DNA of 64,000 nucleotides from positions 1 to 64,000 of the forward strand of contig NZ_PDNU01000019.1 in the NCBI RefSeq assembly GCF_002631185.1. The letters run 5' to 3'. This document shows positions 1,155-27,877 of the stretch, in pieces; position 1 is the first letter of the stretch, and each line of letters starts with the position of its first letter. The notes under the pieces were generated by a model. That model saw only the letters and a program-made list of their open reading frames with translations, was not told the DNA's origin and searched no databases. Source of the stretch: Teichococcus rhizosphaerae (GTDB lineage Bacteria > Pseudomonadota > Alphaproteobacteria > Acetobacterales > Acetobacteraceae). Position numbers and translations under genes: made by a program.

Positions 1155-4100
1155 TCACACCGAGAAGTACTTGGCGCGCGGGTGGTGCAGCACGATGGCG
1201 CTGGTGGACTGCTCCGGGTGGAGCTGCCACTCATCCGAGATCGAGACGCCGATGCGCTCGGCCTTGAGCAGCTTCAGCAGCGGCGCCTGGTCCTCCAGCC
1301 GCGGGCAGGCGGGGTAGCCGAAGGAGTAGCGGCCGCCGCGGTAGCCCTGGGCCAGCATCTTCTCCATGTCCCGGTCATCCTCGCCGGCATAGCCCAGCTC
1401 GGCGCGGATGCGCTTGTGGACGTATTCCGCCATGGCCTCCGCCATCTCGACCGAGAGGCCGTGCAGGTAGAGGTAGTCCTGGTAGCGGTTGCCCTCGAAC
1501 CATTCGCGCGCCACGTCGCTCGCCTTCTGCCCCACCGTGACCACTTGGAGGCCGATGACGTCGCGGTTGCCCGGCCCGTCCCCGATGTCGCGCACGAAGT
1601 CGGCGATGCAGTCGCCATCCTCCTTGGGCTGGCGCGGCAGGGTGAAGCGCGCGGCCTCCGTCACCCCGTCCTCCTCGAACAGGATGACGTCGTTGCCCTG
1701 GCCGGCGCATTTCCAGTAGCCGTAGATGGCCTGGGGCCGCAGGATCTTCTCCGCTTCCGCCAGGGCCAGCATGCGCTTCAGCACCGGGCGCAGCTCCTGC
1801 TTCGCCCAGCCGATGAAGTCGTCGAGCGAGCGGCCCTGCTTCCGGAAGCCCCACTGGAACTGGTAGAGCGAGCGCTCGTTGATGAAGGGGATGATCGCCT
1901 TCGGGTCCGACTCCATCACGCGCGGGCCCCAGAAGGGCGGCACGGGCACGGGCTCGTCCGCGGTCAGCCGGTGGCGGCGCGCCTGGGCGTAGTTGACATC
2001 GACGGGCGCGAAGCCGCGCGGGTCGGCGGTGCCGAGGGTGCGGGTGGTATTGCGCGACTTGCCGCTGCGCTTGGATTGCAGCGCGGCGAGGTAGCCGTCG
2101 AAGTCGTTGCCCATCACCTTGTCCATCAGGTGCAGGCCGTCGAAGGCGTCGCGCGCATAGGCGACGCGGCCATTGGCATAGGCGCGGACGCAGTCATCCT
2201 CGACGAAGTTGCGCGTCAGCGCGGCGCCGCCGAGCAGCACCGGCACCTCCACGCCGAGACGCGACATCTCCTCCAGGTTCTCCTTCATCACCACGGTGGA
2301 TTTGACCAGGAGGCCGGACATGCCGATGGCATTGGCGCGGTGTTCCCGCACCGCCGCCACCATGTCGTTCAGCGGCACCTTGATGCCGAGATTGACAACC
2401 TTGTAGCCGTTGTTGGTGAGGATGATGTCGACGAGGTTCTTGCCGATGTCGTGCACGTCGCCCTTCACCGTGGCGAGGACGATGGTGCCCTTCTCCTGCC
2501 CGTCGATCTTCTCCATGTGCGGCTCGAGATAGGCGACGGCGGCCTTCATCGTCTCGGCCGATTGCAGCACGAAGGGAAGCTGCATCTTGCCGGAGCCGAA
2601 CAGCTCGCCCACCACCTTCATGCCGTCGAGCAGGATGCCGTTGATGATGTCGAGCGGCTTGATGCCCTTGGCCAGCGCATCCGCCAGCTCCTCGTCCAGC
2701 CCCTTGCGGTCGCCATCGACGATGCGGTCCTTGAGGCGGCCCTCGACCGTCTCGGCCTTCACCTTCTTGGCGGCATCCGCGGCCTTGCGGCCGGCGAACA
2801 TCTCCAGGAAGCGGGCAAGCGGGTCATAGCCCTCGCTGCGGCGGTCGAAGATCAGGTCCTCGGCCACCTTCACCTCCTCGGGCGGGATGGCGTGCAGCGG
2901 CTTGATCTTGGAGACATGCACGATGGCGCCGGTCATGCCCGCCTTCACCGCGTGGTCCAGGAACACCGAGTTCAGCACGTGCCGCGCGGCCGGGTTCAGG
3001 CCGAAGGAGATGTTGCTGAGGCCCAGGATGATCTGGATGTCCGGGAACCGCTCCCGGATCATGCGGATGCCCTCCAGCGTCCAGAGGCCGAGCTTGCGGT
3101 CGTCCTCGTTGCCGGTGGCGATGGTGAAGGTCAGCGGGTCGATCAGCAGGTCGCTCTGTGGCAGGCCATGCCTGTCGCAGGCGAACTCCACCAGCCGCGC
3201 GGCGATGCGGAGCTTGTCCTCCGGCGTCTTGGCCATGCCCACCTCGTCGATGGTGAGGGCGATGACGGCGGCGCCGAACTTCTTGGCCAGCACCATGCGG
3301 TCCGTCGCGTGACCCTCGCCATCCTCGAAGTTGATCGAGTTGATGATGGGCTTGCCGCCATGCAGCTTCAGGGCGCTCTCGATCACCGGCGTCTCGGTGC
3401 TGTCGATCACCAGCGGCGCGTTGACGCTGCCGGTGAAGCGGCGCACCACCTCGTCCATCTCGGCCTTTTCGTCGCGGCCGACGAAGGCGGTGCAGATATC
3501 GAGGGAGTTGGAGCCCTCCGCCACCTGCTCGCGCCCGATGGAGACGCAGGCATCCCAGTCATGCGCCGCCTGCCGCTCGCGCCAGGCCTTGGAGCCATTG
3601 GCGTTGCAGCGCTCGCCGATGGAGAAGTAGCTGTTCTCCTGCCGCAGCGTGGTGGCGCCATAGAGGCTCGCCACCTGCGGCACCCAGTGGACATCGCGCC
3701 GCACGGGCGCGGGGCGGAAGCGCCCGCCATCCACGCGGCGCAGCATGGCGTCCAGCGCCTGGATGTGCGGCGTCGAGGTGCCGCAGCAGCCGCCGATGAG
3801 GTTGACGCCATCCTCGGCGACGAAGCGCTCCATCCAGCTCGCCATCTCGGCGGCGCCGAGCGGGTAGTGCGTGCGGCCGTCCACCAGCTCGGGCAGGCCG
3901 GCATTGGGCTGCACCGAGATCAGGCCGGGCCAGTTCCGCGCGAGGTAGCGGACATGCTCGGCCATTTCCTGCGGGCCGGTGGCGCAGTTCAGCCCGATCA
4001 GCGGCACGTCGAGCGCCTGCACCACGGTGGTGGCGGCGGCGATGTCGGCGCCGACCAGCAGCGTGCCGGTGGTCTCCACCGTCACCTGCACGAAGATGGG

Positions 4101-4655
4101 GATGTCCTTCCCCGCCTCGCGCAGCGCGGCCTTGGCGGCGTTCACCGCCGCCTTGATGAACAGCGTGTCCTGGTTGGTCTCGGTCAGCAGCGCATCCGCC
4201 CCGCCGGCGATCAGCCCGCGGCACTGCTCGGTGAGCGCCGCCTCCAGCGTGTCGTAGTCGATATGGCCGAGGGAGGGCAGCTTGGTGCCGGGGCCGATAT
4301 CGCCGATCACCCAGCGGTCCCGCCCGTCGCTGAAGCTGTCCGCCGCCTCCCGCGCCAGCTCGACCGAGAGCTTGTTGATCTCGAAGGCGCGGGCGCCCAG
4401 CTCGAACTCCTCCAGCGTGATCGGCGAGCCGCCGAAGCTGTTGGTCAGCACCATGTCCGACCCGGCCTCGTAGTAGCCGCGATGGATCTCGCGCACGAGC
4501 TCGGGGCGGGAAAGGCACAGCACCTCGGTGCAGTTCTCCTTGCCCCAGTAGTCGCGCTCGACATCGAGTGTCAGGGCCTGGACACGGCTGCCCATGCCGC
4601 CATCGCAGAGCAGCACACGGTCGCGCAGGGCTTCCAACAGGGGCGGACGGGCCAT
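1155..4655 (-). CDS. metH: Cobalamin-dependent methionine synthase
   Basis: Transfers the methyl group of 5-methyltetrahydrofolate to homocysteine through methylcobalamin, giving methionine. The 1166 residues contain all four modules. The homocysteine domain has zinc cysteines in LNCATGP (about residue 220) and IGGCCGTSTPH (about 285-292). The pterin-binding domain follows at roughly 330-620. The B12 domain carries GDVHDIGKN (about 731-739), whose His is the lower cobalt ligand. The C-terminal AdoMet reactivation domain contains RYSFGYPACP (about 1107-1116). Length is close to the usual about 1200. It starts 16 bp after the ArsR-methyltransferase gene, so the two are probably one transcript controlled by the dyad at 5638-5659. 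No metF lies nearby. Confidence 0.97.
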   Translation of the reverse strand: MARPPLLEALRDRVLLCDGGMGSRVQALTLDVERDYWGKENCTEVLCLSRPELVREIHRGYYEAGSDMVLTNSFGGSPITLEEFELGARAFEINKLSVELAREAADSFSDGRDRWVIGDIGPGTKLPSLGHIDYDTLEAALTEQCRGLIAGGADALLTETNQDTLFIKAAVNAAKAALREAGKDIPIFVQVTVETTGTLLVGADIAAATTVVQALDVPLIGLNCATGPQEMAEHVRYLARNWPGLISVQPNAGLPELVDGRTHYPLGAAEMASWMERFVAEDGVNLIGGCCGTSTPHIQALDAMLRRVDGGRFRPAPVRRDVHWVPQVASLYGATTLRQENSYFSIGERCNANGSKAWRERQAAHDWDACVSIGREQVAEGSNSLDICTAFVGRDEKAEMDEVVRRFTGSVNAPLVIDSTETPVIESALKLHGGKPIINSINFEDGEGHATDRMVLAKKFGAAVIALTIDEVGMAKTPEDKLRIAARLVEFACDRHGLPQSDLLIDPLTFTIATGNEDDRKLGLWTLEGIRMIRERFPDIQIILGLSNISFGLNPAARHVLNSVFLDHAVKAGMTGAIVHVSKIKPLHAIPPEEVKVAEDLIFDRRSEGYDPLARFLEMFAGRKAADAAKKVKAETVEGRLKDRIVDGDRKGLDEELADALAKGIKPLDIINGILLDGMKVVGELFGSGKMQLPFVLQSAETMKAAVAYLEPHMEKIDGQEKGTIVLATVKGDVHDIGKNLVDIILTNNGYKVVNLGIKVPLNDMVAAVREHRANAIGMSGLLVKSTVVMKENLEEMSRLGVEVPVLLGGAALTRNFVEDDCVRAYANGRVAYARDAFDGLHLMDKVMGNDFDGYLAALQSKRSGKSRNTTRTLGTADPRGFAPVDVNYAQARRHRLTADEPVPVPPFWGPRVMESDPKAIIPFINERSLYQFQWGFRKQGRSLDDFIGWAKQELRPVLKRMLALAEAEKILRPQAIYGYWKCAGQGNDVILFEEDGVTEAARFTLPRQPKEDGDCIADFVRDIGDGPGNRDVIGLQVVTVGQKASDVAREWFEGNRYQDYLYLHGLSVEMAEAMAEYVHKRIRAELGYAGEDDRDMEKMLAQGYRGGRYSFGYPACPRLEDQAPLLKLLKAERIGVSISDEWQLHPEQSTSAIVLHHPRAKYFSV

Positions 4656-4671
4656 GGGGCGGGCCTCTCTC

Positions 4672-5625
4672 TTAGAAGTTCAGGACGGGTTCGGGCAGGG
4701 GCGCGACGGAAACGGCGAGGCGCCGCGCCGGCCAGAGGCGGACAGGCAGCGGGCCGGGAACCTCCACCGCCGGCAGCGGCGCGCAGCCGGCGGCGCCGAG
4801 CCAGCCGGCCAGCTCCGCGTCGTCGAAGCCGGGCCAGCGATGCGCGAGGCCGGCCAGCACGTCCTGCCGCTCATGCGGCGCCAGGTCGATCACCACCAGC
4901 AGCCCGCCCGGGCGCAGGATGCGCGCGGCCTCGGCCAGCGCGGCGGCCGGGTCCTCGGCGTAGTGCAGCACCATCTGCAGGGTGGCGGCATCGAAGCCGG
5001 CGTCGGGCAGCGGCAGGCGGTACATGTCGGCCAACCGCACGGAGGCATTGGCGAGGCCCCGCTCGCCGAGCCGCGCGCGGGCCAGCGCCAGCATCTCGCG
5101 GCTGGCATCCAGCCCCAGCACGGAGGCGGCGCGCGGCGCCATCACCTCCAGCAGCCGCCCCGTGCCGGTGCCGATATCGGCCACGCGGCCCAGCCGCTCC
5201 GGCAGCAGGCGCAGCAGCGCCGCCTCGATCTCCGCGCCCGGCAGGTCGAGGGCGCGCATCTCGTCCCAGTCCGCGCCGTCGCGCCGGAAGGCCTCGGAGG
5301 CGGCGCGGGCCCGCTCGGCGGCGATGCGGGCGCTGGCGCGGCGGTCGGCGGCGACGGTCGGCTCGTCCTCCGGCAGCCGGGCCAGCACCTGCCGGGCCAG
5401 CCCGGCCTCGGGGGAAAGCTGGAAATAGGCATTGGCGCCCTCGGGCAGCCGCTCCAGCAGCCCGGCCTCGACCAGCAGCTTCAGGTGGCGCGACAGGCGC
5501 GGCTGGCTCTGGCCCAGAATGGCGCACAGCTCGGACACGCAGAAGGCGCCGCGGGCGCACAGGGCCAGCAGGCGCAGGCGGGTCGGTTCGGCGGTGGCGC
5601 GCAGTTGCGCCAGCAGGGTCTCCAT
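4672..5625 (-). CDS. ArsR/SmtB-type regulator fused to a SAM-dependent methyltransferase domain (SahR-like candidate)
   Basis: A 317-residue two-domain protein. Residues 1-85 form an ArsR winged helix (EPTRLRLLALCARGAFCVSE, recognition helix region QSQPRLSRHLKLL, wing GANAYFQLS). From about residue 145 a class I methyltransferase fold appears with glycine-rich motif VADIGTGTGRLLEVM and acidic motif VLGLDASREML. ArsR proteins next to methionine-cycle genes are known in proteobacteria, and SahR regulators respond to S-adenosylhomocysteine. It is inferred here that the methyltransferase-like domain acts as the SAM/SAH sensor rather than an enzyme. The gene leads the metH operon and lies 12 bp from a perfect inverted repeat, consistent with autoregulation. 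Confidence 0.85.
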   Translation of the reverse strand: METLLAQLRATAEPTRLRLLALCARGAFCVSELCAILGQSQPRLSRHLKLLVEAGLLERLPEGANAYFQLSPEAGLARQVLARLPEDEPTVAADRRASARIAAERARAASEAFRRDGADWDEMRALDLPGAEIEAALLRLLPERLGRVADIGTGTGRLLEVMAPRAASVLGLDASREMLALARARLGERGLANASVRLADMYRLPLPDAGFDAATLQMVLHYAEDPAAALAEAARILRPGGLLVVIDLAPHERQDVLAGLAHRWPGFDDAELAGWLGAAGCAPLPAVEVPGPLPVRLWPARRLAVSVAPLPEPVLNF

Positions 5626-5659: not shown

Positions 5660-6053
5660 TAGCTTCATGCGCTGGTCCCTCGATGCCCGAACCCCCCTCC
5701 GCCTGCTGGGCGGCGCCGCCCCTGGCCTTGCCTCCCCTGGCCCTGCCTCCCCTGGCGCCGTCGTGCTGGCCGAGGATGGCGCGCCGCTGCCCGGGCGGCC
5801 GGCGCGGGTGGAGCGCTTCGCAGCACCGCCCGCCACGGCGCATCCCGCCGGCTGCGCCTGCTGCCAGCCGCGCAACCCGGTTGCCATCGCGCTGGACCGG
5901 CTGTTCCTGGCCCGCACCAAGGGGGAGGTGCCGTGGTTCGACAGCATCGTCGCCGTGGCGCGGACCGAGGAGGGGAGGGCGGCCATTCGCGCCGCGCTGG
6001 AACATGACAGTGTCGCGCGGGCACGGTTCAGGCTGGAAGGGCAGGAGGAATGA
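5655..6053 (+). CDS. Small conserved-type protein with CxCC motif, divergent from the metH operon; function unknown
   Basis: A 132-residue soluble protein that I do not recognise with confidence. The first half is Gly/Ala/Pro-rich and poorly structured. The second half looks conserved: a CACCQPRNP motif, then ALDRLFLARTKGEVPWFDSI and a helical segment ending ARARFRL. Three clustered cysteines suggest metal or cofactor binding; similar small CxCC proteins occur, as I recall, near COG0523 metal chaperone genes, but none is present here. The first ATG (5655) lies inside the operator dyad, and a second in-frame ATG is at 5667. Neither has a clear Shine-Dalgarno, so the start is uncertain. It may share regulation with the divergent ArsR-metH operon. 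Confidence 0.6.
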   Translation: MSSFMRWSLDARTPLRLLGGAAPGLASPGPASPGAVVLAEDGAPLPGRPARVERFAAPPATAHPAGCACCQPRNPVAIALDRLFLARTKGEVPWFDSIVAVARTEEGRAAIRAALEHDSVARARFRLEGQEE

Positions 6054-6087
6054 GTTCCCCCAGCGCCCTCCTTCCTTTTCCCGCGGG

Positions 6088-7188
6088 TCAGCAGAAATGG
6101 GCGCCGCGGGTTTCCACCGTCACCACATAGAGGGACTGGCTGGCGGTCATGAACAGGCGGTTGCGCCGCGTGCCGCCGAAGCAGAGGTTGGAGCAGATCT
6201 CGGGCAGCCTGATCAGCCCGATGCGCTGGCCATCGGGGGCGAAGACATGCACCCCGTCATAGCCATCCCCCACCCAGCCGGCGCCGGCCCAGAGATTGCC
6301 CGCCTCGTCGCAGCGCATGCCGTCCGCCATGCCGGTCCGGCCGTCCATCTCCATGCTGCAGAAGGTGCGCGGGTTGGCAAGGCGGCCGCCCTCCACGTCG
6401 AAGGCCCAGACGATGCTCCTGGCCTCGGGGTAGTGGCTTATCCCGGTATCGGCGACATAGAGGGTGCGGTAGTCGGGGCTGAAGCACAGGCCGTTGGGCT
6501 TGAAGGGCTGGTCCGCCACCTTGGCGACGCGCCCATCCGCCGGGTCGATGCGGTAGATCGCCTCCTTGATCAGCGGGCGGGGCGAGCTGGCCGCCTCCGG
6601 CACGCGGTTGCCCTCATAGTCCATCAGCGCGCCATAGCCGGGATCGGTGAACCAGATGGCGCCGTCCTGCGGGTGGACCACGGCGTCGTTGGGCGCGTTG
6701 AAGGGGCCGTCCGGCCCCCGCGCGGCCAGCACGGTCAGCTTCCCGTCCGGCTCGTAGCGCACCACGTCGCGGTGGAAGTGGCGGCAGGCGATCTGCCGCC
6801 CCTCGCGGTCGAAGGTGTTGCCGTTGGAATAGCCGGAAGGGCTGCGGAAGCGGCGGGAAACGCGCAGGTCCTCCTCCGTCAGCCGCAGGCACTCGTCGTT
6901 CGGGATGTCGGACCAGACCAGGAAGCGGCCCGTGGCGTGCCAGGCCGGCCCCTCCGCCCAGCCCATGCCGGTGTGCAGCCGGCGGATGGCGCTGTTGCCA
7001 AGTCGCGCGGTGAAGCGCTTCGTGTCCAGCGCGACGATGTCGGCATCGGGGTAGCGGGCGGGCGGCGCGCCCGGGCCGTAGAGGCGCTGCGCGCTGGCGC
7101 CAGGGCTGAGGCCGGCCAGCATGGGGGTGGCCAGGGCGGCGGCGCCGAGCAGCACCCCCCGCCGGCGCGCGGTGGCAGAAACGGACAT
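6088..7188 (-). CDS. SMP-30/gluconolactonase-family protein with Tat signal
   Basis: A 366-residue exported protein. The N-terminus ARRRGVLLGAAALATPMLAG is a twin-arginine type signal followed by Ala-x-Ala (GASA). The mature part is a six-bladed propeller of the SMP-30/LRE family: GMGWAEGPAWHATG, LVWSDIPNDECL, NGNTFDREGR, FNAPNDAVVHPQDGAIWFTD, NGLCFSPDYRTLYVADTG, and TGMADGMRCDEAGNLWAG. Family members hydrolyse lactones or similar esters using a bound divalent metal; the acidic and Asn ligands (EGP, NDA, NG, DG) are present. Substrate is unknown. It stands alone between a forward small gene and a reverse channel gene. Lactonase and sugar-lactone roles are both possible. Confidence 0.85.
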   Translation of the reverse strand: MSVSATARRRGVLLGAAALATPMLAGLSPGASAQRLYGPGAPPARYPDADIVALDTKRFTARLGNSAIRRLHTGMGWAEGPAWHATGRFLVWSDIPNDECLRLTEEDLRVSRRFRSPSGYSNGNTFDREGRQIACRHFHRDVVRYEPDGKLTVLAARGPDGPFNAPNDAVVHPQDGAIWFTDPGYGALMDYEGNRVPEAASSPRPLIKEAIYRIDPADGRVAKVADQPFKPNGLCFSPDYRTLYVADTGISHYPEARSIVWAFDVEGGRLANPRTFCSMEMDGRTGMADGMRCDEAGNLWAGAGWVGDGYDGVHVFAPDGQRIGLIRLPEICSNLCFGGTRRNRLFMTASQSLYVVTVETRGAHFC

Positions 7189-7295
7189 CGGCTTGTTTCC
7201 TCCCGGGGCGCGGGGCGCACCGCCCTATGCCGCGGCCCCGCGCGGCCAGGCCCGGCGGGCCGCAGCCCGCGGCGCCGGCCGCGGGTGATCCCCCA

Positions 7296-8477
7296 CTACC
7301 GCGCCATCGCCGTCCGCTCATTCTGCCTCGCCCCGGCCGGCGGCGCATCATTTCCGGGGATGCCGGCGGGCGCGTCCATCCAGGCCGCGCCCGGCGGCAG
7401 GCGGCCGATCTCGGCCCGCCGGCGCGGCAGGGCGTAGGGGTGCTCGGCCCGCAGCCAGCCGATCATCTTCTCCCGCACCTCGCAGCGCAGGTCGAAGGCG
7501 CGGCCGGCATTGCTGGCGCTGACCAGCAGCCGCACCTCCATGGTGTCCTGCCTGAAGTCCGTCACCTGCAGGTTCACCACCCGCCCGTCCCACAGGCGGG
7601 AAGCGCGGGCGATCTCCTCCAGCTTCGCGCGCATGGCGGGGATGGGCGCGGCGTGGTCCAGATACATCATCACCGTGCCGATCAGCGCCGCGCCCTCGCG
7701 CGTCCAGTTCTGGAAGGGCTTCTCGATGAAGTAGGCGAGCGGCAGCACCATCCGCCGCCAGTCCCACAGCCGCACCACGACATAGGTGGCGGAGATCTCC
7801 TCCACATTGCCCCATTCGCCCTCGACGATCACCGCGTCCTCCAGCCGGATCGGCTGGGTGATGGCGAGCTGGATGCCGGCGATCAGGTTCTTCAGCACCG
7901 GCTGCAGGGCGAGGCCCACCACCAGGCCCGCGGCGCCGGCCGAGGCCAGCAGCGAGACGCCGTATTGCCGCACCCCGTCGAAGGTCATCAGCGCCACCGC
8001 GGCGGTGACCACCACGATCAGCGAGGCGGCGACGCGCTGCAGGATGCGCGACTGCGTGGCGTGCTTGCGGGCGAGGAGGTTGTCCTCGGCATCCAGCTTG
8101 AAGCGGCGGAGATAGACGGTGGTCCAGATGCGCAGCGCCGTCAGCGCCACCCAGCCCATGAGGCAGATGAAGCAGACCAGCAGCGCGTGCCGCACGATGG
8201 CGGTCTGCTGCGCCGTCAGCGGCGCGAGGCCGGCGGCGACGGACAGGAAGAACACGACCAGCCCGAGCCGCACGGGGCCGTAGGTGCGCGAGACCAGCGA
8301 GCGGAGGAACAGCTCCCGCTCCCGCACCAGCCGCGTCAGCAGGCGGAACACCAGCCGGTGGACCCAGACCGCCAGCAGCACCGCCGCCGCCAGCACGGCG
8401 AGGCTCACCGCCCAGTCCGGTGCCCAGCCCACGGAGGCGACGATGTCCCGGGCCGTCGTGTCGAGCTGATCGAGCAA
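7296..8477 (-). CDS. MscS-family mechanosensitive ion channel
   Basis: A 393-residue membrane protein. Helices are visible at about 23-42 (VSLAVLAAAVLLAVWVH), two more in the region 75-135, and a pair before the pore. The pore-lining segment SAGAAGLVVGLALQPVLKN with its Gly/Ala packing, then IAGIQLAITQPIRLEDAVIV and GNVEEI, is the MscS signature, followed by the beta domain. Such channels release solutes on hypo-osmotic shock. The start is a TTG at 8477, supported by a strong Shine-Dalgarno (aGGGAGa) six bases upstream and the absence of any early in-frame ATG. It appears monocistronic. Confidence 0.9.
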   Translation of the reverse strand: MLDQLDTTARDIVASVGWAPDWAVSLAVLAAAVLLAVWVHRLVFRLLTRLVRERELFLRSLVSRTYGPVRLGLVVFFLSVAAGLAPLTAQQTAIVRHALLVCFICLMGWVALTALRIWTTVYLRRFKLDAEDNLLARKHATQSRILQRVAASLIVVVTAAVALMTFDGVRQYGVSLLASAGAAGLVVGLALQPVLKNLIAGIQLAITQPIRLEDAVIVEGEWGNVEEISATYVVVRLWDWRRMVLPLAYFIEKPFQNWTREGAALIGTVMMYLDHAAPIPAMRAKLEEIARASRLWDGRVVNLQVTDFRQDTMEVRLLVSASNAGRAFDLRCEVREKMIGWLRAEHPYALPRRRAEIGRLPPGAAWMDAPAGIPGNDAPPAGARQNERTAMAR

Positions 8478-23921: not shown

Positions 23922-25628
23922 TCAGAGGCCTGGCAGAAGCTGCCGCAGCATGCCGGGCAGCGCGGATGGTTGAGCGGCAGGCAAGGCGGGCGCGGACAGG
24001 CTCGGCAGCGGCGCATGCCTGGCTTGGCTGCGCGCCTGCTCCCTCTCCTGCTCTCTGCGGCTGGCCCGGTAGCAGGCGGTGCCGATGGTCGGGTCTGCCC
24101 TCTCGCATTCCTGCAACGTGGCGGCGAGAGCCACGGTCTGGCGCAGTTGTGCCTGGATGGTTGCGCGTGTCACCAGGAACGGCTCCCGCGTGCCAAAGCG
24201 CCGCTCCCCCTCTTCCAGCGCCGCCAGGGCGGCGGAACCCTGTCCCGAGGTCAGCAGCAGCCGGGCCAGCAATTCATAGGTGCTGGTGGTGGCGTTGGGC
24301 ATGGACCGTGCTCTTTCCGCCTCGCGCAGGGCATGGGTGATCCGCCCCTCCTTCTCGGCGACCTCGGCCGATGCCATGGCCTGCAGCAAGGGGATGCGCC
24401 GCAAAGCCGGGCTGTCGGCCTCCCGCGCCGCCGCCGGAAGGTCGTTCTGGAGCAACGCCCTGGCCATTCTCTCATGGGCCAGCAACGCGTGCTGGTAGGC
24501 CAGAACATCTGCGTACAGGGGCTTGCCCTCGGCGAAGGGAGAGGGGCGGGTCTCGGCATCAACGGCATTGGGCCAGTGGCGTGCCTCATAATCGCGGGCG
24601 CCTTGCTGGCGGAGTTGCAGGGATTCGTAGCGTTCCGTCCAGGGGGCGGCGGCCTGGGCAACCGCTTCCTCGATCTGCGGCGCCAGCAGGCCCGCGGCCT
24701 GGCTGCCCAGAGACTGCCACTGCGAGCCCTTGCCGAGCAGGCCGAGGCTTGCGCCGAGGCCGAAGGCCTGGCTGACCGTGCCACGGAGCTCGGCGGCCCG
24801 CGCCGCGCGGTGCTGCTCGGAGGCGGCGATGTGCCGGAAGAAATCCAACATGCCCTCCGGCGAGTATCCGGCCCGTACGGCAAGGTCCAGGCCGAAGCGA
24901 TCCGCCTCGGCCTCCTGCTCCCGGCTGAAGCGGGCATCGCCTAGGTCGCTGTACATGGCTGCGAGGATCCGCGTGCCGCTGGCGGCCGCGACGATGGTGT
25001 TGCGGTCATTGTCGCGCGTGTTGTCCTGCAGGCGCATGCCGCCTCCCGGCGCCCCGACGACGCGGCTGTTGGCCAGGACCGTGCCGAGCGCCACGGTTTC
25101 CGCCGCGAGAACCAGCGAATCCTGCGCTTGACGGTTGTTCTGCCGGCGCTGTTGCAAATGGCCGAGCAGCACATGGCCCGCTTCATGGCCGAGCAGAAAG
25201 GCCAGCTCATCCTCCGTCTTCGCGGAAGCGAGCGCGCCGAGATCGATGAAGATCTGGTTGCTGGCATGCGCGCGGCCGCCATAATTCAGGTCTGCAACCA
25301 GGAACAGCTCGATTGGCGGGTCAGCCCGGGTGGCGGTCCAGTTTGCCAGCAGGCGGTTCAGGATCGCCTCCATGGCAGGCTGCAACCTTGCGTCGCGTAT
25401 GGCCGGCTGGTTGGCCAGCGGCACCGGCCGTCCATCGGCCCCGCGCGAAGCCTGGACGGCGGCAGGTCTCGCCAGGGCCATGCGCGCCGTCGAGAGGACC
25501 GCCGGATCCTCGCTGGTCCTGATCTCCGGCACAGCGGGCGCGGCGCAGGCGGCCAGCAGGGCGAGCCCGACCACAGGCAGCGGAACCGTGCGGCACAGCC
25601 AGGCAAGAGGTGCCAGCGCCGAGCTCAT
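23922..25628 (-). CDS. M48-family metalloprotease lipoprotein (last gene of CHASE2 operon)
   Basis: A 568-residue zinc protease. Residues 1-28 form a lipoprotein signal (LPVVGLALLAACAAP, lipidated Cys28), so it is probably membrane-tethered in the periplasm. The zinc motif is LLGHEAGHVLLGH (about 145-157), and the third ligand glutamate lies in REQEAEADRFGLDLA. The C-terminal half is alpha-helical with TPR-like pairs (LLTSGQGSAALAALEEGERR, LVTRATIQAQLRQTVALAAT), as in BepA-type proteases that act on outer-membrane assembly. The ATG overlaps the TGA of the upstream SH3-like gene in an ATGA junction, showing translational coupling. Substrate is unknown. Confidence 0.85.
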   Translation of the reverse strand: MSSALAPLAWLCRTVPLPVVGLALLAACAAPAVPEIRTSEDPAVLSTARMALARPAAVQASRGADGRPVPLANQPAIRDARLQPAMEAILNRLLANWTATRADPPIELFLVADLNYGGRAHASNQIFIDLGALASAKTEDELAFLLGHEAGHVLLGHLQQRRQNNRQAQDSLVLAAETVALGTVLANSRVVGAPGGGMRLQDNTRDNDRNTIVAAASGTRILAAMYSDLGDARFSREQEAEADRFGLDLAVRAGYSPEGMLDFFRHIAASEQHRAARAAELRGTVSQAFGLGASLGLLGKGSQWQSLGSQAAGLLAPQIEEAVAQAAAPWTERYESLQLRQQGARDYEARHWPNAVDAETRPSPFAEGKPLYADVLAYQHALLAHERMARALLQNDLPAAAREADSPALRRIPLLQAMASAEVAEKEGRITHALREAERARSMPNATTSTYELLARLLLTSGQGSAALAALEEGERRFGTREPFLVTRATIQAQLRQTVALAATLQECERADPTIGTACYRASRREQEREQARSQARHAPLPSLSAPALPAAQPSALPGMLRQLLPGL

Positions 25629-26041
25629 CGGGTGCAGCGCCTGCCGCCGGCGGAGGAACCGGCCATGCCGGCGGTCTGCTGCTCGCGCGTCGGCAGGGGA
25701 TTGTCGCAAACAATGGCTTCCGGTGCCATCAGATCGCGGTCAAGCAGCCATGTCTCGCTGTTGTTGATCCTGACCTTCAGCCACCGCTTGTTCCGTCCCA
25801 AGCTCTGAAGCGGCGTCTCCCTGCTGGCGCCCAGCTGGCTGGCGGAAAGCGTGTACTGCGTTTCGGGTCGGTCTGGGTCCGTCCTGGCGCGTACCGTACT
25901 GCCGATACTGCCGATGAAGTACTCTGGCTGGATAGGGGGGGCCGGCTGGGCCTGGACCGCCGGAGGCAGGATGGCGAAGCTCAGGGCCAGCAGGACCGCC
26001 TGTCCCAAAGACCCTGCCGGGCCGATGACAACGAGACTCAT
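25625..26041 (-). CDS. Secreted SH3-like protein (middle gene of CHASE2 operon)
   Basis: A 138-residue exported protein. The hydrophobic start GQAVLLALSFAILPPAVQAQ is a Sec signal ending Val-Gln-Ala. The mature part SIGSTVRARTDPDRPETQYT, LQSLGRNKRWLKVRINNSET followed by WLLDRDLM resembles a bacterial SH3 (SH3b) fold, which binds peptidoglycan or protein partners. A C-terminal tail with two cysteines (IVCDN, RRCTR) follows. It lies 48 bp after the CHASE2 gene, and its stop overlaps the protease start. GC content is visibly below the surroundings. SH3b assignment is moderate; the partner is unknown. Confidence 0.65.
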   Translation of the reverse strand: MSLVVIGPAGSLGQAVLLALSFAILPPAVQAQPAPPIQPEYFIGSIGSTVRARTDPDRPETQYTLSASQLGASRETPLQSLGRNKRWLKVRINNSETWLLDRDLMAPEAIVCDNPLPTREQQTAGMAGSSAGGRRCTR

Positions 26042-26089
26042 GAAGATCTCCCTGATGCGAATGGGACCCCAGCGAAGCGCGGCTTCAGC

Positions 26090-27769
26090 CTATCGCCCGG
26101 CGGGTTCCTGCTGGCCCGACGTCGCGCCGGCCTCGGCATCCAGCCAGCCTTCCAGAAACTGTTCCGCCGCCATGCCAAGAGCGAACAGCATCAAAGCAGC
26201 AACATTCTCGTCCCGCAACATTTCGATCCCATACAGCGAAGGTGCTGCGAAAGACAGGAACAGGAAGAACACCCCGGCAATAATCTGCCGGCCCATGATG
26301 CTGCTCAGGCATGCCAGGGCCAGCATGCTGAACTTGATCAGCAAATCTCCGATCCCCGAATCCGGCCGGGCAGGTTTTGGATAGTCCGGCCCCGCACGCA
26401 GCAGCGTGTCCAACGCCGTGGCGTGCAGCAGGACGCCCGGCACGGTCCCGTGCAGGGGAGAGTGGATCCGGTCCGGATGGCTGGCCAATGCCGTGCCGAT
26501 CAGCACGACCCTGCCGCGCAGAAGGCGCTCGAGCAGTTCCGGCCTGTTCGTCGGGGTCAGCAGCATATCGGCCGGGATCAGCGGAAAGGGCAGACAGGCC
26601 GAACGGTCGGAGGCGTGCTCGATGCTGCTGGCCGCCCAGTCCGGCAAGCCGAATTTTTCGCCTATGCTAACCTCATTTCCCAAGGACATGGCCTCGGTCA
26701 AAACGACCCCGAGGCTCTGCCACAGTTTCGAGTCCCAGCGATCCAGCCCCTCTTCCTGCGGATAAAAGGTGCAGGACCAGCGGTCGAGCGCGCGGATATC
26801 CCGTGCAACGGCGGGGGCGGCATTCAGCCGCCAGCGCGGAATCAAATAGGCAGGCTCGCCGGCCTTGTGCAGTTCCCCCAAGAACGCACCCTGCCGGAAA
26901 GGGGCGCACTCGACGGGCGCAGCCTCGTCCTGGCAGGTCACTTCCAAGATGGACAGCGCGGCGGCGGGTCCCATGAAGGAGCGCGAGATCCAGGCGTGGC
27001 TGTGGCTCTGCGTTTTCGAGTCCTGCACCCCTTGGGGAGCCGTACTGTCGGGCAGTCCAGCGGCATCATGCCTGGAAGGCTCAGGAACTGGCGGGGCCTT
27101 TGCAACCGGGATGTGGCGCCCGGAGACATGGCGTTCGACCAGCGCGTAGCTACGCCGGTCCTTTTCATGCACATTCTGATTGATGAAAGTCGTTCTGGCT
27201 TCGGCCTCCTGCAGGCTGCCCGCCAGGGCTGTGGGACAGAGAGTGAAAGGCGCCTGAGTTTTCAGGCAGTCCATAGGACGTCGAAAATTCTTGTCGGAGA
27301 GCTTGCTGAACGCCCACTGGCTCTGATCGGCAAGCAGGAGTCTGGGCAGGCCGGCCTCGGGTTTGTTGCTGTCTTCGATCAACCGGCGCAGCGGCGGGCT
27401 GCCATGGTCGATCACTGGCCGTTCTTCGCCCAGCACGACATCAAGGAATACGGTTCGGGGAGCCCTTTGGTTCACGCTGTCGATCAAGGCGGACCAGAAG
27501 CCGAAGCTCGGCGGCCAGGTCTCGTCCAGGGCGCGCAGGCTCCTTTCGTTCACCATCACCACAGCCACAGCTTCCGAGGCGACCGGAGGATGCCAGATGG
27601 CATTCAGCCGAGCCTCGATACGATGAGAAGCAGCCTGAGTCAGGGCTGAAAAGCCGAAAGGATCCAGATAGGCGCCCATCATGAGAAAAGCGCCGAGGAC
27701 AAGGGTGCGGCAGACCTTGCGCCACACACCCCCATCGCCTGGCAACAAGATGCGAAATGCGAGTCTCAT
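26090..27769 (-). CDS. CHASE2 sensor-domain membrane protein without an output domain (first gene of operon)
   Basis: A 559-residue protein with CHASE2 architecture: one N-terminal helix (VCRTLVLGAFLMMGAYL), a large extracytoplasmic domain, and three closely spaced C-terminal helices (LLIKFSMLALACLSSIMG, IIAGVFFLFLSFAAPSLYG, NVAALMLFALGMAAEQFL). CHASE2 marks include SFGFWSALIDSVNQRAPRTV, FLDVVLGEERP and RVVLIGTALASHPDRIHSPL followed by HGTVPGVLLHATALDTLL. CHASE2 normally feeds a cyclase, kinase or GGDEF domain; here only about 20 residues follow the last helix. The ATG at 27769 was chosen over a TTG at 27781; neither has a clear ribosome site. GC is lower than in flanking genes, suggesting transfer. 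It probably senses an envelope signal. Confidence 0.8.
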   Translation of the reverse strand: MRLAFRILLPGDGGVWRKVCRTLVLGAFLMMGAYLDPFGFSALTQAASHRIEARLNAIWHPPVASEAVAVVMVNERSLRALDETWPPSFGFWSALIDSVNQRAPRTVFLDVVLGEERPVIDHGSPPLRRLIEDSNKPEAGLPRLLLADQSQWAFSKLSDKNFRRPMDCLKTQAPFTLCPTALAGSLQEAEARTTFINQNVHEKDRRSYALVERHVSGRHIPVAKAPPVPEPSRHDAAGLPDSTAPQGVQDSKTQSHSHAWISRSFMGPAAALSILEVTCQDEAAPVECAPFRQGAFLGELHKAGEPAYLIPRWRLNAAPAVARDIRALDRWSCTFYPQEEGLDRWDSKLWQSLGVVLTEAMSLGNEVSIGEKFGLPDWAASSIEHASDRSACLPFPLIPADMLLTPTNRPELLERLLRGRVVLIGTALASHPDRIHSPLHGTVPGVLLHATALDTLLRAGPDYPKPARPDSGIGDLLIKFSMLALACLSSIMGRQIIAGVFFLFLSFAAPSLYGIEMLRDENVAALMLFALGMAAEQFLEGWLDAEAGATSGQQEPAGR

Positions 27770-27877
27770 CAGGCCGCGCAATCCATTCAGATTCTATTGC
27801 CTTACAGCAATGAATTCGAACTGGCCACTGCCTCCTGCCAAGCTCCTCTCCCCATCTCGGGGGGGAACAGAAGAAAC

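Follow-up and report, generated by a model that had tools for sequence, protein, structure and literature searches.

Three consecutive reverse-strand genes in Teichococcus rhizosphaerae encode a CHASE2 receptor that lacks an output domain, a short SH3-like protein with an export signal-like start and a zinc protease of family M48. They occupy positions 23922-27769 of a 64,000-nucleotide stretch of contig NZ_PDNU01000019.1, which is referred to throughout, at its full length, as the window. Comparison across genomes supports the three genes as one real unit. We propose that they may form a dedicated envelope signalling unit in which CHASE2, acting through the SH3-like protein, would gate a latent periplasmic M48 protease, a reading to which we assign slightly less than an even chance.

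Recurrence of the three-gene unit

Whether the three-gene order recurs elsewhere had been set beforehand as a test of the sequence-only reading of this DNA, and it does. All three genes were found in 97 distinct loci (99 minus two duplicates; a few are clipped by contig ends), comprising 47 loci from Gammaproteobacteria, 17 from Betaproteobacteria, 8 from Alphaproteobacteria, one each from a Desulfovibrio and an Anaerolineae metagenome-assembled genome (both resting on single metagenome bins) and 23 that are coded or classless, the window included. Carriers include the soil bacteria Pseudomonas, Duganella and Massilia. Close to the window, occurrence is patchy: its CHASE2 protein matched 9 of 98 genomes and 3 of 58 genomes of its own family, its own genome counted in each case. 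The three best other matches, one from the window's genus, one from its family and one from a different family, are all output-free, and directly downstream of each lie a gene for a small exported protein and one for an M48 protease.

Profile searches extended this picture. A four-sequence CHASE2 profile run against 387 genomes of the class recovered ten new loci at E ≤1.1e-11, all ten with the trio; nine of their CHASE2 frames are shorter than 700 amino acids and that of G348 has 756. Locus L060, with a weaker score in the same scan, also holds the trio; among 18 stretches fetched after the scan, the trio is present in 11. A 15-sequence profile run against 397 genomes of the phylum gave seven matches below E 1e-40, namely the window and six others, and the trio was present in all six. 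Named-species genomes were scanned with one peptide pattern, [LWF]HAMALDN, which yielded 111 relatives, a biased lower bound; among the best 80 of these 111, CHASE2, small gene and M48 stand in order on one strand in 76, assigned by profile in 72 (weakest small-gene match E 0.036) and by eye in 4, with the M48 gene cut by a contig end in two. Of the remaining four, L138 stops after the small gene, and L075, L087 and L089, described below, have CHASE2 and the small gene without an M48 match. An attempt to scan genome contigs with a single protein found no relative, and a 15-row alignment held no sufficiently conserved stretch; a 5-row alignment worked. Two of three matches in a plasmid collection were studied, and both records carry the trio: one from Photobacterium, by profile, and one from Caballeronia, by annotation, with the middle gene listed as a hypothetical protein.

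Rearranged loci also occur: in L051 the order is SH3, M48, CHASE2 on a single strand, and in L055 the CHASE2 gene points away from SH3-M48. The Anaerolineae locus L068 has tandem CHASE2 genes (3559-5265 and 5965-7578) ahead of the SH3-like and M48 genes, and in L151 a conventional CHASE2-HD gene (1285-3279, forward strand) lies on the opposite strand about 200 bp from the trio M48 gene. In two Vibrio loci, L075 (3815-5866 and 7671-11825) and L087 (3792-5858 and 7698-11993), two exported caspase-domain proteins flank the CHASE2-SH3 pair, one with WD40-like repeats; the caspase assignment was made by Pfam on L075 only.

Reading frames of 110 amino acids or more, taken from 52 representative loci with about 6 kb on each side, were compared all against all (BLAST E 1e-8). 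The comparison recovered CHASE2 in 51 loci, M48 in 48 and the small genes in several clusters. No fourth recurring gene was found in these 52 loci, the next family occurring in 6, and a small, fast-changing fourth gene could escape at these settings. The flanks vary among loci, so the unit sits in many contexts; flanking genes were compared for recurrence only.

Searching back from the partners gave the same association. An M48 profile matched 21 of the 387 class genomes at E ≤1e-30, of which 13 are the profile's own rows and 8 are new. Seven of the eight new loci adjoin a CHASE2 or CHASE2-like gene, as five new trios and two facing pairs that lie outside the 97-locus count; the eighth (L204, genome G228), which holds SH3 and M48, begins at a contig start. 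Two of the trios (L200 and L201, genomes G089 and G282) show, in this order, CHASE2 (747 amino acids; no second domain in L200), then a small exported gene, then M48. The other three (L205-L207, genomes G274, G132 and G310) have a long CHASE2-like protein (803, 722 and 989 amino acids), a small exported gene and M48. The CHASE2-like proteins of L205-L207 were found by profile, fall just below the Pfam cut-off or lack a Pfam match, and are possible family outliers; the small genes of all five loci were read by eye. The SH3 profile matched 14 of the 387 class genomes, each match adjoining such an M48 gene (11 of the 14 being profile rows), and did not recover G417 and G287, two loci whose small gene is known.

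Other CHASE2 loci served as controls. None of the ten taken from the scans of relatives and of the class (L016-L019, L059, L063-L067) had an M48, and 5 of the 14 taken from the scan of the phylum (L154-L167) did, all five cyclase-bearing; control loci L063, L064 and L160 are on short contigs. The idea that the trio accompanies all CHASE2-only proteins fails: L157, L159 and L161 carry CHASE2 alone by Pfam with no M48 match nearby, and L061 (430 amino acids) has an opposite-strand M48 gene 1.6 kb off and no SH3 match.

Receptor, small protein and protease

The CHASE2 gene of the window (26090-27769, reverse strand) encodes 559 amino acids from an ATG at 27769, with an alternative TTG at 27781 possible, and is the sole CHASE2 gene found in a search of that genome. 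Pfam recognises the domain at 62.4 bits against a cut-off of 26.3. It is matched in two separated stretches, the best at residues 395-462 (Pfam) and the first half near residues 56-187 (genome search), and so carries an insert. Hydropathy predicts one transmembrane helix before the sensor (residues 19-35; 27665-27715) and three after it (residues 476-492, 496-512 and 523-539; 26153-26344). The sequence-only reading held that the protein ends after these three helices, which agrees with the 20 residues that remain beyond the last one; no Pfam family besides CHASE2 matched the protein, and hence no cytoplasmic output domain.

This architecture is general among trio receptors. CHASE2 was recognised by Pfam in 96/96, the window included, and cyclase, GGDEF, HD and kinase domains in 0/96; 94 lack any output-type Pfam domain, and the remaining two carry a TIR domain. 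Other weak Pfam matches, near E 0.006, were to DUF7079 (two receptors) and AzlD (one). Tails past the last helix have a median of 25 and a maximum of 94 residues in 80 trio CHASE2 proteins, and 8-42 residues in eight further ones; the six trio receptors of the phylum scan lie in this same range. The build shown by these sequences is that of an inner-membrane receptor, with one helix, a large sensor domain and usually three more helices, output-free as a rule with exceptions. The N-terminal stretch of one CHASE2 protein (L062, 4460-6682, reverse strand) faintly resembles the SH3-like protein, at 8.8 bits, which hints at a possible SH3-CHASE2 fusion.

A gap of 48 bp (26042-26089) separates the CHASE2 gene from that of the SH3-like protein (25625-26041, reverse strand; 138 amino acids), whose stop overlaps the M48 start in an ATGA (25625-25628); both junctions had been described beforehand and are exact in the sequence. 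A scan of the locus for promoters and terminators gave results at chance level. The small protein has a signal-peptide-like N-terminus, aligns with its counterparts at 12 further loci and has no Pfam or NCBIfam match up to E 1. Its AlphaFold2 model has a mean predicted local distance difference test score (pLDDT) of 69.4 and is better over residues 41-110 (block means 69-93). In a fold search the nine best Protein Data Bank matches are SH3 or NlpC/P60 entries with probabilities of 0.75-0.97, yet they are weak, at E 0.1 or worse. Two cysteines mark the C terminus: across 13 aligned rows Cys112 (25706-25708) is nearly invariant and Cys136 (25634-25636) is invariant, and 79 of 80 small proteins have at least two cysteines within their last 50 residues. 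The sequences show that, in nearly all loci seen, CHASE2 is encoded together with an exported small protein bearing a C-terminal cysteine pair and with an exported M48 protease that often bears a lipobox and has its zinc site intact.

The third gene (23922-25628, reverse strand) encodes an M48 protease of 568 amino acids, recognised by Pfam at 53.8 bits against a cut-off of 20.3. It has a lipobox, LAAC (25545-25556), and a lipobox-like pattern is present in 54 of 74 relatives. The zinc-binding motif HEAGH (residues 148-152; 25173-25187), with H148, E149 and H152 invariant in 15/15 aligned rows, and the E..AD motif (24900-24914), with the third zinc ligand E239 and conserved in 15/15, are retained as HExxH and E..AD in 74/74 relatives. 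In 72/74 the M48 start falls no more than 60 nt from the stop of the small gene, under a start-choice rule that favours near starts.

In Escherichia coli BepA, an HPx4R plug must leave the zinc before cleavage (PMC7950410). At the aligned position, trio M48 proteins retain the plug arginine in 95/95 and the plug histidine in 88/95 (two duplicates included), with proline directly after the histidine in just 15/95; L014 and L050 have the HP one residue nearer. The full motif was found, by pattern rather than alignment, in 25 of 26 genomic M48 domains. At the plug position of the window (24609-24629) the sequence is YESLQLR, which does not fit the BepA motif. Given that histidine and arginine are mostly retained as in BepA, the trio M48 is probably latent, held so by the plug.

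Separate groups, a second trio and base composition

Phylogenetic trees place both large proteins of the trio away from their conventional relatives. The CHASE2 tree holds 70 proteins, including 48 rows from the output-free module (two of them, L075 and L089, from loci without M48) and 21 conventional rows with cyclase, GGDEF, HD, kinase or, in three cases, CHASE2 only; five of the 21 are of a cyclase-SH3-M48 type. All 21 conventional rows lie past a branch with a support of 100 in the Shimodaira-Hasegawa-like approximate likelihood ratio test (SH-aLRT) from the 48 module rows. Constraining these 48 as one clade gave a better likelihood (p-AU 0.758, approximately unbiased (AU) test). The M48 tree holds 77 domains: 46 from trios, 26 other M48 domains of ten genomes (three from the window's own) and five from cyclase trios. 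The 46 trio domains lie on one side of a branch with a support of 98, apart from the genomic and cyclase-trio domains. Pairwise CHASE2 and M48 distances correlate across 46 loci (r 0.70; 0/5000 permutations as high), with a correlation of 0.48 for far pairs. That the CHASE2 and M48 proteins of the trio group apart from conventional relatives is shown by sequence.

A second kind of trio is found in five phylum-sample loci outside the window's class (L155, L163-L166), with CHASE2 joined to a guanylate/adenylate cyclase (Pfam, 5/5), a small exported gene and M48. The small gene was read between the other two in 5/5, and the only one put through Pfam, that of L165, has an SH3_3 match of 31.7 bits; the HPx4R motif is present by pattern in all five M48 proteins. 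Three of the five loci share genus code g396 with G620, whose CHASE2 core is that of Pseudomonas poae L105. Because its CHASE2 falls among the conventional rows and its M48 among the genomic ones, the cyclase trio was probably assembled separately. The picture is blurred by L202 and L203, two loci outside the tree samples that are described below. A candidate scenario in which the cyclase trio is the plain ancestor of the output-free trio is unsupported, its M48 standing among genomic M48 domains, and a single clade of all M48-linked CHASE2 proteins comes close to being rejected (p-AU 0.0536). In our view, the strongest hint that receptor, SH3-like protein and protease work in contact is that these three kinds were united more than once.

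The sequence-only reading also described the unit as less GC-rich than its flanks and transferred as a whole, which stands in part. GC content is 0.629 for CHASE2, a value as low in 0.3% of the window's 1680-bp stretches, and third-position GC is 0.75, 0.80 and 0.83 across the three genes against 0.90-0.97 in six in-frame neighbours (polA and rmuC, as out-of-frame rows, excluded), but the overall GC of M48 (0.699) is ordinary for the window. Transfer of the unit is plausible from the third-position values and the patchy occurrence within the family; against it, the two trees disagree. The window joins two relatives of its own family in the M48 tree (support 88) and Burkholderiales in the free CHASE2 tree (94), and the AU test does not reject a by-family grouping of the CHASE2 rows (p-AU 0.578). 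A specific transfer from Burkholderiales was dropped on account of that disagreement and the AU result.

Proposed mechanism, rival explanations and known systems

With a receptor mostly lacking cytoplasmic output and two exported partners, action in the periplasm is the simplest reading, and the receptor's main output would lie on that side. The CHASE2 sensor may change on binding a ligand or on envelope damage, the change would be relayed by contact to M48 with the SH3-like protein as adaptor, and the unlocked protease would cut either CHASE2 itself or some substrate in the envelope. In the cyclase sister trio, a like exported pair accompanies a receptor with cyclic nucleotide synthesis as an added activity, so that periplasmic coupling may be the common theme and cytoplasmic output optional. 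More broadly, and more tentatively, the loci may represent a new signalling class, arisen at least twice, in which CHASE2 has its main output in the periplasm, an SH3-like adaptor unlocks a latent M48 and caspase-type proteases can replace the M48; we would sooner doubt than assert this wider claim.

Several observations weigh against a receptor-gated protease. The window's own M48 carries tyrosine for the plug histidine, as do L090 and L153, and four more of the 95 carry threonine or leucine. M48 was not found in three loci with CHASE2 and a small gene, two from Vibrio (L075 and L087), where a protein with a C-terminal caspase domain follows, and one from Methylobacter (L089, 7302-9908). Two trio receptors, in L085 (2747-4780) and L086 (5266-7299; a Defluviicoccus bin), carry the TIR domain. 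These are closely similar records in which the domain precedes the first helix (76.1 bits by Pfam in L086; by reading in L085) and would be cytoplasmic; one of the two receptors also weakly matches another TIR family. In L202 (4935-9231, genome G258) and L203 (3527-7856, genome G393), trio-type SH3-M48 genes face a conventional CHASE2-guanylate/adenylate cyclase gene on the other strand, so members of the trio M48 group also occur with receptors that have an output. The structure model of CHASE2 is poor (mean pLDDT 56.8) and a fold search with it returned nothing, and both trees come from rapid searches, have long branches and are supported by SH-aLRT alone. Gene linkage, moreover, would fit the protease alike as output, as input-side processor or as maintenance factor of the receptor.

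The main rival places SH3 and M48 on the input side: the protease would process or clear a ligand or partner of CHASE2, and the helices of CHASE2 would carry the signal inward to a partner whose gene lies elsewhere, a task that in a few receptors would fall to their own TIR or cyclase domain. The fusion of CHASE2 to a cyclase in the sister trio fits this arrangement, as do the TIR receptors and the facing cyclase genes of L202 and L203, and on the strength of the last two we raised our estimate for it slightly. CHASE2 cyclases of Sinorhizobium meliloti receive their signal via an outer-membrane protein (PMC13001267), which also favours it. Yet among the 52 representative loci the trio has no recurring neighbour that could serve as an output gene, and the tails past the last helix are short; at about one chance in four in our judgement, input-side processing is unlikely without being far-fetched.

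A second alternative regards the M48 as a BepA-type outer-membrane quality-control protease, with CHASE2 as a membrane anchor or partner and not a sensor. The closest solved relatives of the window M48 by sequence are indeed 3c37 and BepA entries, weak TPR matches below cut-off occur in L053 and L068, and the frequent lipobox-like pattern would suit such a role. However, the window M48 scores far below the NCBIfam cut-offs for BepA (NF052400, 55.4 versus 570 bits) and LoiP (NF052399, 41.9 versus 365 bits), trio M48 proteins stand apart from the 26 genomic ones, and an anchor needs no large sensor domain; we consider this explanation improbable.

TIR is a defence domain, and its presence in two receptors, together with the patchy occurrence, the varying flanks and the replacement of M48 by caspases in two Vibrio (PADLOC caspase model), might suggest that the trio serves in conflict with phages or rivals, freeing a harmful envelope protease once CHASE2 has sensed damage. 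PADLOC nevertheless matched none of the three window proteins or of the two Pseudomonas proteins tried, and we give this idea little credence. Chance neighbourhood, or a private feature of one genome, is refuted by the 97 loci, the rearranged orders, the search back from M48 and the separate tree groups, and can be set aside as next to impossible.

CHASE2 domains have reportedly been treated, since Zhulin et al. in 2003, a study cited in PMC8195603, as sensors for cytoplasmic outputs. A large, separate, output-free CHASE2 group with its own SH3-like protein and protease offers a direct genetic handle on how a sensor can act beyond the cytoplasm and how M48 proteases of the envelope are switched, and its occurrence in easily grown soil bacteria makes the system accessible.

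BlaR1 and MecR1 offer a precedent for a membrane sensor governing a zinc protease, with sensor and M56 domain in one protein; in the trio, receptor and M48 are separate proteins and the M48 is predicted to be periplasmic. Output-bearing CHASE2 receptors with cyclase, GGDEF, HD or histidine-kinase domains, including S. meliloti CyaD1, CyaD2 and CyaK, share the CHASE2 domain and the N-terminal and C-terminal helices, but the trio receptors have none of these outputs, lie past the fully supported branch and are partnered by an SH3-like protein and an M48. E. coli BepA and LoiP share the M48 domain, HExxH..E, export, weak TPR signs in some trio members and, mostly, the plug histidine and arginine, whereas the trio M48 is set apart by its low family scores, its separate grouping, the scarcity of the plug proline and its place beside CHASE2 and SH3. 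Caspase-CHASE2 proteins likewise tie CHASE2 to a protease (PMC3501461, PMC2853523, PMC8195603), but as a fusion, with the caspase predicted to be cytoplasmic (PMC3501461); in the portions of these papers available, neither SH3 nor M48 is mentioned as a neighbour. On the same footing, the contexts published for CHASE2 are caspases, kinases, cyclases or WD40 neighbours, and not the trio (PMC3501461, PMC2853523, PMC13001267, PMC8195603, PMC5587647, PMC2176072). The composition had been suggested to be new, and no description of a CHASE2-SH3-M48 trio was found in the open-access literature searched. Judged as a gene system from its sequences, the trio fails to qualify as a member of any named system tried. 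Receptor-governed proteolysis is a known kind of regulation and the trio's parts are known; the mechanism by which we suggest they are joined is a proposal.

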